Assembly: GCA_015063985.1 (NCBI GenBank)
Contig: SVTC01000002.1
Span: forward strand, 62,001-126,000
DNA: 64,000 bases
Source: Oscillospiraceae bacterium
Lineage (GTDB): Bacteria > Bacillota > Clostridia > Oscillospirales > SIG627
Reading direction: 5' to 3'
Shown here: in pieces, positions 46,743-55,645 of the stretch
Position numbering within the stretch: position 1 is the first letter of the stretch
Layout: every line of letters starts with the position of its first letter
Notes under the pieces: model-generated
Told to the model about the DNA's origin: nothing
The model's input: only the letters and a program-made list of their open reading frames with translations
Databases searched by the model: none
Translations under genes and position numbers: made by a program

Positions 46743-46990
46743 GTGTCCGCAAAAGCAGTGCTTGTCAGGAAAAACAGACAGACTTTCAGAGCGCACAAAC
46801 AAAAGGCTCCCTCCGGGAGGGAGCTCCCGACGAAGTCGGGTGAGGGAGAGCGCGTTACAATAAAAATTGTGCTTATTTGACAGTCACGCGGGCTCCTTCC
46901 GTCACGCTACGCAGCGAACCCCCAAAGCTCATTTCATTCGCTTCGGGGAACCCCTGCCGCGTGCCACCTTCCTCCCGGAGGAAGGCTATT
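46743..46990 (+). repeat. GC-rich palindromic intergenic repeat, copy 1
   Basis: GCAGTGCTTGTCAGGAAAA..AAAGGCTCCCTCCGGGAGGGAGCTCCCGACGAAGTCGGGTGAGGGAGAGCGCGTTACAATA...CGTCACGCTACGCAGCGAACCCCCAAAGCTCATTTCATTCGCTTCGGGGAACCCCTGCCG; matches 54543-54855. Confidence 0.9.
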
Positions 46991-54542: not shown

Positions 54543-54855
54543 TGGACACAAATGCAGTGCTTGTCAGGAAAATTGACAAGTTATAGGTGAACATAAAAAG
54601 GCTCCCTCCGGGAGGGAGCTCCCGACGGAGTCGGGTGAGGGAGAGCGCGTTACAATAAGGTTTATCTAAATTTAAGTCACGCAGGCTCCTTCCGTCACGC
54701 TACGCAGCGAACCCCCAAAGCTCATTTCATTCGCTTCGGGGAACCCCTGCCGTGTGCCACCGTCTCGCTACGGCTCGGTCACGCTCGGGCTCTGACACCA
54801 CACCGTGGTGTCATTCACTACCCTCGCGCCGCTTCGCTACCTCCCGGAGGAAGGC
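54543..54855 (+). repeat. GC-rich palindromic intergenic repeat, copy 2 (with extra internal segment)
   Basis: Same order of segments as 46743-46990, with extra CGTCTCGCTACGGCTCGG...CCGCTTCGCTA before CTCCCGGAGGAAGGCT. Confidence 0.9.
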
Positions 54856-54900
54856 TTTTTTACCTCCCGGAAGGTAATGGAATAAACTTCTCGAAATATG

Positions 54901-54929
54901 TTTACAAATCGCAAAAAATGTGATATAAT
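54901..54929 (+). promoter_or_regulatory. sigma-A-type promoter
   Basis: TTTACA-17 bp-TATAAT, ending 6 nt before the inverted-repeat element. Confidence 0.7.
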
Positions 54930-54935
54930 AGTTAT

Positions 54936-55091
54936 GCCAAACAAATTTAATAGTAGAATTAGCGGTATCTTTTTCTTTATGGGATAATTATACCCTTTTT
55001 TCGCCATAATCATTTTTAGAATTTGGTAAAAGCGCAAATTCCGAGTAGTGATTATGGTAGAGATACTCTAATTCTATTAAATTTGTTTGGC
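54936..55091 (+). ncRNA. candidate structured RNA (or palindromic MITE-like element)
   Basis: Outer arms GCCAAACAAATTTAATAG..AATTAG..GTATCT / AGATACTCTAATTCTATTAAATTTGTTTGGC, inner CCATAATCA/TGATTATGG (55004/55049), innermost GAATTTG/CAAATTC (55019/55035). Confidence 0.5.
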
Positions 55092-55117
55092 GACAATCGG
55101 AGTTGGCGTTTTTCGGA

Positions 55118-55151
55118 GCGTTGACTACGGTTGACGCTCTTTTTATTTTAT
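55118..55151 (+). terminator. terminator-like hairpin after the structured element
   Basis: GAGCG TTGACTACGGTTGA CGCTC TTTTTATTTTA. Confidence 0.5.
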
Positions 55152-55177
55152 ATTTATCTTTTGAAGGGAAAAATGAG

Positions 55178-55645
55178 ATGAAAAAAATTGTATCACTTGC
55201 ACTTGTTCTTAGCACGTTACTGTGTGCATTCACTTTGACTTCTTGCGGTTCGAATAAAAAAGAAGAAGTATTTTATAATCTTGTGGACGAAACAAAGGAA
55301 TTACTTGATATTGTAGCAGATGATATTTATTCATACTGGTATGATTGTATTTATGAAGATAAGTATCTTGATAACATTTCTTATGCTGTTGCCTGTGCAA
55401 AAAGCGATAACGAAGAAAACATTAATACCATTGAGGAAAACACTACAAAAATCAAGGATCTCTACAAGGAAATAAAAGATGGAAAATTACGCTCTGAAGC
55501 AAAAGCTGTAATGCAAGCATATAATGATTACTATACTTTAATTGTTGAAGTTAGTGGCTCATTCAATTCGTATTCCGCAAGTAAAGAAACTTATAAAAAA
55601 GAACTTGCCAGCGCAATAGACGATTTTTATTTTGAGCTTAATTGA
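55178..55645 (+). CDS. small lipoprotein of unknown function
   Basis: MKKIVSLALVLSTLLCAFTLTSC|GSNKK lipobox; start at 55178 with GAAGGG RBS-like. Confidence 0.7.
   Translation: MKKIVSLALVLSTLLCAFTLTSCGSNKKEEVFYNLVDETKELLDIVADDIYSYWYDCIYEDKYLDNISYAVACAKSDNEENINTIEENTTKIKDLYKEIKDGKLRSEAKAVMQAYNDYYTLIVEVSGSFNSYSASKETYKKELASAIDDFYFELN

Follow-up and report, generated by a model that had tools for sequence, protein, structure and literature searches.

An apparently undescribed family of clostridial leader RNAs with the anatomy of a transcription-attenuation switch

Riboswitches of the preQ1 and fluoride type terminate transcription and work with a strand that is sequestered in a pseudoknot, while the c-di-GMP riboswitches (GEMM) are a single leader family found before many genes for surface and secreted proteins, with several copies per genome. 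The element described here, from a 64,000-nt stretch of an Oscillospiraceae genome (the window), resembles the first type in that a 3' strand is shared by the sensor pseudoknot and the antiterminator and an intrinsic terminator lies just 5' of the gene, but its putative sensor is much larger and closed by a stem, its genes have no shared pathway, and it has no Rfam match. Like the c-di-GMP riboswitches, its family precedes varied surface and secreted genes with several copies per genome, but its architecture is a different one, and the Rfam scan gave no match to them in sequence or structure. Comparative genomics has yielded candidate orphan riboswitches and attenuators (PMC11109978, PMC8040213, PMC2864571) that are likewise structured leaders with a terminator and an antiterminator. 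Text searches of two of these papers (PMC11109978 and PMC8040213) turned up no motif of such description, and an unnamed entry may stand in their supplementary motif lists.

The window element and its parts

The earlier note on this DNA had placed a promoter, a closing inverted repeat, two inner stems, a terminator and a lipoprotein start in this region, and each of these was found where it had been placed. The features, all on the plus strand of the window, are as follows.

54901 to 54929, plus strand: sigma-A-type promoter, TTTACA (54901-54906), 17 bp, TATAAT (54924-54929), read from the sequence
54936 to 55091, plus strand: putative sensor domain with closing stem P1 (GCCAAAC...GTTTGGC), inner stem P2 and an apical hairpin, from the fold and from covariation of outer P1
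54981 to 55003, plus strand: conserved 5' bubble with a small hairpin, GGGATAATTATACCC-TTTTTTCG, from the alignment
55019 to 55025, plus strand: S1, 5' arm of the apical hairpin, GAATTTG, from S1:S2 covariation, in the short subtype too
55028 to 55043, plus strand: S2 (AAAAGCGCAAATTCCG), apical loop and 3' arm, predicted to pair with S1 or, as a pseudoknot, with S3, from pairing energies
55094 to 55100, plus strand: linker CAATCGG, putative 5' strand of the antiterminator, covarying with the terminator loop and 3' arm
55099 to 55113, plus strand: S3 (GGAGTTGGCGTTTTT), just past the closing stem, predicted to pair with S2 or within the antiterminator, from pairing energies
55094 to 55133, plus strand: predicted antiterminator hairpin (CAATCG.AGTTGGCGTTT against the terminator 5' arm plus CGGTTG), from folding energy
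55116 to 55144, plus strand: intrinsic terminator, 10-bp stem then T5, from sequence and folding
55163 to 55168, plus strand: Shine-Dalgarno (SD) site GAAGGG of the controlled gene, from the sequence
55178 to 55645, plus strand: controlled gene, encoding a 155-aa orphan lipoprotein, ATG at 55178, lipobox LTSC, from the sequence

The 5' end of P1, GCCAAAC, begins at 54936, 6 nt past the TATAAT, and its 3' end, GTTTGGC, lies at 55091; enclosed by it are two further stems, CCATAATCA/TGATTATGG and GAATTTG/CAAATTC. The terminator stem-loop, GAGCGTTGAC-TACG-GTTGACGCTC at 55116-55139 followed by TTTTTATTTTA, sits between the promoter and the start codon. The fold, which the earlier note had described as deeply nested, is far from chance: positions 54930-55178 fold at -82.4 kcal/mol compared to -49.0 +/- 4.0 kcal/mol in 200 dinucleotide shuffles, none of which was as good (z = -8.3). 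The bubble at 54981-55003 is the most conserved unpaired stretch in the alignment, which makes it the candidate sensing site. For the lipoprotein no confident protein family was found, and its predicted model, all-helical and of low confidence, was too poor for use.

Two further observations concern the DNA upstream of the promoter. A box resembling CTCGGAAGGTAATTT lies just 5' of the -35 (window 54860-54900) and is common to L045, L070 and L015; it may be an operator or an upstream promoter element. Further upstream, at 54596-54764, is a GC-rich palindromic repeat (CTCCCTCCGGGAGGG...) with a second copy at 46801-46971 (92% identity), resembling a REP-type intergenic repeat.

Relatives of the element in the Clostridia

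Rfam 15 contains no family reaching its gathering score over the element; searches in E-value mode to E = 10 gave unrelated low scores only (at best 19.3 bits, where the cut-off is 211), and no match was found in a plasmid collection. By plain DNA comparison, relatives turned up in several further families of this order, none of them adjoining the window lipoprotein. In 15 relatives the architecture is the same, with a sigma-A promoter, a long P1, the 5' bubble (here carrying GGGAUAnUUAUACCC-UUUUUUCG), an inner stem, an apical hairpin and a tail, both conserved, and a terminator. An SD and a start codon come next, and no two of these relatives have the same gene there. The outer bases of P1 compensate among relatives (GCCAAAC/GTTTGGC, GCTACAC/GTGTAGC, GTCACAC/GTGTGAC), with an observed pairing energy of -16.0 kcal/mol compared to -9.9 (sd 0.34) when permuted. 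Of 130 relatives, 114 have a -10 with 5 of its 6 positions matched, versus 13% of random places, and in 84 of the 130 its end lies exactly 6 nt upstream of the stem; the promoter-to-stem spacing is a feature of the family. Two subtypes can be distinguished. The long form, which includes the window element, has about 170-195 nt to the tail, and the short form, of about 120-160 nt, is without the extra apical hairpin and holds the whole of S2 in its S1:S2 hairpin. The readable short matches (about 20, not every one) have the same promoter, tail and terminator logic.

A covariance model (R1) matched 87 of 299 genomes of the order and 60 of 389 of the class; among 398 genomes of the phylum, it matched two only, both of the element's own order, and none outside the class. 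These broad searches scored 6 to 8 candidates per genome and so undercount copies: in four genomes scored in full, the model found 7, 12, 12 and 15 matches (E <= 0.01), and in one of the two with 12 (G302) a few are minus-strand echoes of the palindrome. The tail pattern matched at least 119 stretches in species genomes, and those listed come from metagenome-assembled genomes (MAGs) labelled Clostridia, Clostridiales, Oscillospiraceae, Ruminococcaceae, Ruminococcus, Christensenella or Bacillota, many of them from animal guts. It also matched three viral contigs, which are identical to each other at the element. Relatives with the shared architecture occur in many families of the class. The window element is one copy of a large and apparently undescribed clostridial family of putative RNA switches, whose existence and breadth, together with the strand exchange and the antiterminator described below, were absent from the earlier note.

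Several side observations came from the same searches. Two human faecal phage records, GenBank MT835503 (468-532) and MT835845 (2170-2231), match the tail-plus-terminator half of a composite query, and a viral contig with the element (L156) also carries a Twister-sister ribozyme and a RAGATH-5 RNA. At L027:3331-3356 (G055:C1), the conserved bubble recurs as a near-copy of 26 nt (GGGATAAGTATACCCTTTTTTCGCC) set in another structural context, which may be chance or a second RNA sharing the motif.

The earlier note had named as the main alternative a MITE, a mobile inverted repeat with the P1 arms as terminal repeats, and the long inverted arms, the multiple copies in some genomes, the tandem copies and the few copies in phage contigs are what such an element could show. 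Against it, the genome-wide search returned one full copy in the element's own genome; copies within one genome (G302) differ greatly in sequence and length with the pairings kept by compensating changes; and promoter, terminator, SD and ATG stand in fixed register before genes. No recurring target duplication was seen, and in an empty-site comparison the flanking gene order was not kept in relatives. Copy number, divergence and register lead us to reject a MITE, which is largely refuted and has hardly any probability left.

Three other candidates were rejected. Like 6S RNA, the element is long and for the most part double-stranded, and it has a bubble and a promoter to itself, but it gave no RF00013 match at the element or in its own genome, and three genomes (G012, G031, G039) carry 6S at loci separate from the element. 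The cores of integron attC sites have the form RYYYAAC/GTTRRRY, which GCCAAAC/GTTTGGC resembles; the match fails at the fourth base of the core, however, and the arms change in compensating fashion between a promoter and a terminator whose register is fixed. A leader-peptide attenuator was rejected because inspection of 14-15 aligned leaders showed no conserved frame; a candidate ATG at the base of the stem in the window element lacks conservation among them, and its frame ends early in relatives.

Strand exchange and the antiterminator

S2, which can pair with S1, is also complementary to the tail strand S3 (GGAGUUUGCGUUUUU). The mean S2:S3 energy in 131 elements is -17.9 kcal/mol, compared to -16.7 (sd 0.09) with tails exchanged among elements and -8.4 with shuffled upstream sequence, where the variation of S3 in the long subtype is limited by the tail pattern used for collection. 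For S1:S2, the corresponding values are -4.56 observed and -3.83 (sd 0.10) permuted. The short subtype was collected without the tail pattern, and in 20 of its copies, picked by eye, S1:S2 has -15.8 (permuted -10.4) and S2:S3 -14.9 (permuted -12.4) kcal/mol, with none of 2000 permutations as good for either pairing. The permutation tests given here, for the long and the short copies alike, leave the shared ancestry of the copies in place. The closeness of the two energies in the short subtype is as expected of a bistable switch. Covariation of both alternative pairings, S1:S2 and S2:S3, is well supported by these comparisons, and in the sequences a conserved putative sensor is joined to the expression platform through strand exchange, as in a riboswitch. 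The earlier proposal that GTTGGC at 55103 competes for the 5' GCCAAAC strand did not hold up, as this sequence is private to the window; relatives have GTTTGCG at this place, and the conserved partner is S2 instead of the closing stem.

Immediately 3' of P1 lies the linker, in most cases CAAUCGG or CUAUCGG. Together with the AGU that comes next and a portion of S3, it forms the 5' side of the predicted antiterminator, and this side pairs with the 5' arm, loop and 3' arm of the terminator. Linker:terminator pairing has an observed energy of -5.17 kcal/mol compared to -3.84 (sd 0.17) when permuted, and the pattern used for collecting had left this relation free on the terminator side. Where the linker has A, the terminator has U, and where the linker has U, the terminator has A or G, with two exceptions (L061 and L090); rarer compensations are CGACUGG/UCGGUCG, CUAUCGG/UCGAUAG, CAAUCGG/UUGAUUG and CAAACGG/UUCGUUUG. 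In a count over 44 distinct rows, two of them placed by hand, 94.1% of the linker-terminator cells were paired, compared to 89.2% when shuffled and at most 53% when slid, and changes on both sides occurred in 21 cells versus 6.2 expected from shuffling. The antiterminator is the more stable fold in the family means (-16.9 versus -14.0 kcal/mol, a difference of 2.9) and in the window (-17.9 versus -12.4 kcal/mol for the terminator alone). Less favourably, in constrained folds of the 131 elements only 88 had five or more bases of the linker paired to the loop or 3' arm of the terminator. As in a transcription attenuator, the leaders have a conserved alternative pairing that would exclude the terminator. 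Since the antiterminator and S2:S3 compete for S3, only one of them can form at a time, and the choice among S1, S2 and S3 would set termination. The two-state anatomy is strongly supported: promoter, four strands, both pairings, terminator, antiterminator and position of the gene are read directly from sequence and covariation.

Downstream genes and the proposed switch

Of the 125 copies that could be scored, 119 have an SD and a start codon downstream of the terminator, the median distance being 33 nt (131 copies in total; 6 of the 12 without a called start were too short in sequence for judgement). Together with the conserved, covarying antiterminator, this bears out the leader or attenuator option of the earlier note. 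A scan of 113 downstream proteins gave 67 families in all, including LRR_5 of the BspA type (12), zinc ribbons (6), AMP-binding enzymes (3), WG repeats (3), glycosyltransferases (2), MazE-like proteins (2) and many singletons, with no common pathway visible among them, and a loose pattern found a lipobox-like start in 49 of 119. Cys-rich "CLGNGEQG" proteins are downstream in L016, L058, L060, L070, L146 and others, and AMP ligases in L173 and L207, so that the leader has been kept before one gene family in different genomes. A small Cys-rich family (PGEP.VCLGNGEQGFECCCDECDY) was also noted as a recurrent controlled gene (L016, L045, L058, L060, L070, L146).

A few copies have no gene. At L202:366-1309 four tandem units of the short type, each with promoter, RNA and terminator, precede a gene for a PIN-like protein and a TrmH-like methyltransferase (both assigned by eye), and two tandem units each occur in L045, L060, L129 and L201. 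As the upstream units of these arrays have no gene of their own, an extra role in trans or a multi-promoter logic is possible. At L129:2667-3250 both tandem copies have an additional, degenerate tail-plus-terminator unit (GGCAAATCGAAGCTATGTGTTTTTCGG...) behind them, the expression platform itself seemingly having been duplicated.

These arrays bear on the other reading put forward earlier, in which a free-standing sRNA of about 210 nt is the main product and downstream genes use leftover read-through. Its own promoter and strong terminator, and the gene-less tandem copies (L045, L129 and the four units of L202), suit an sRNA, and for those copies the suggestion keeps some force. As a main role it is improbable, since nearly all scorable copies are linked to a gene, the exceptions lie in tandem arrays, and a covarying antiterminator would be superfluous for an sRNA gene.

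We consider it likely that the element is a 5'-leader transcription-attenuation switch and one member of a clostridial RNA family, and we infer that the exchange occurs in cells, set by a signal, with the following direction of control. RNA polymerase would start at the base of P1 and make the long P1/P2 stem topped by the S1:S2 hairpin, followed by S3. In one state, S2:S3, about 14-16 bp forming a pseudoknot across P1, would keep S3 out of the antiterminator, so that the terminator could form and transcription would stop after about 210 nt, leaving the gene OFF. In the other, S1:S2 would form and S3 with the linker would fold onto the 5' arm, loop and 3' arm of the terminator; this antiterminator, being more stable than the terminator, would allow read-through into the gene, turning it ON. 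The energies suggest that OFF is the ground state in the long subtype and that the short subtype is near balance.

The likeliest signal would be a small ligand or an ion that binds close to the conserved bubble and the apical loop, because the very scattered copies seem independent of a linked partner gene. A second version of the attenuator, in which a factor acting in trans (an antitermination protein, an RNA chaperone or a further RNA) runs the leader with no directly bound ligand, is a real possibility, though at less than even odds. Stems that are long and vary in sequence, with U-rich bubbles and loops that are conserved, would suit protein binding, and up to 15 copies per genome before a diverse gene set fit one regulator and its regulon; yet copies (1 to 15 per genome) are scattered through genomes of many families with no adjoining partner gene in the loci read, which a self-sufficient switch fits better. 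Counting against any attenuator are the genes without a shared pathway, which is unusual for a metabolite riboswitch, the two loci that break the linker rule (L061 and L090) and the gene-less copies. On the sequence evidence, the best reading is an orphan riboswitch-like attenuator family, apparently undescribed. Its kind, the transcription attenuator, is known, and what is unusual here is the breadth of targets and the formation of arrays.

More tentatively, this may be a new class of ligand-sensing RNA through which Clostridia of the gut adjust their secreted, surface and orphan accessory genes to one widespread signal, with long and short architectures built on one strand-exchange core and stackable in up to four promoter-switch-terminator units; we hold this to be a real possibility, if short of an even chance. 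With well over a hundred loci read or matched and about 30% of the order's sampled genomes carrying it, this is a widespread regulatory RNA of animal-gut bacteria, mostly uncultured, and the family has no entry in Rfam 15. The strand-level mechanism is concrete and testable by in vitro mutation. The leader marks which orphan genes are co-regulated, and since these genes have no shared pathway and are often secreted or orphan, the signal of the switch, once found, would reveal a cue for surface and accessory functions in the bacteria that carry it.
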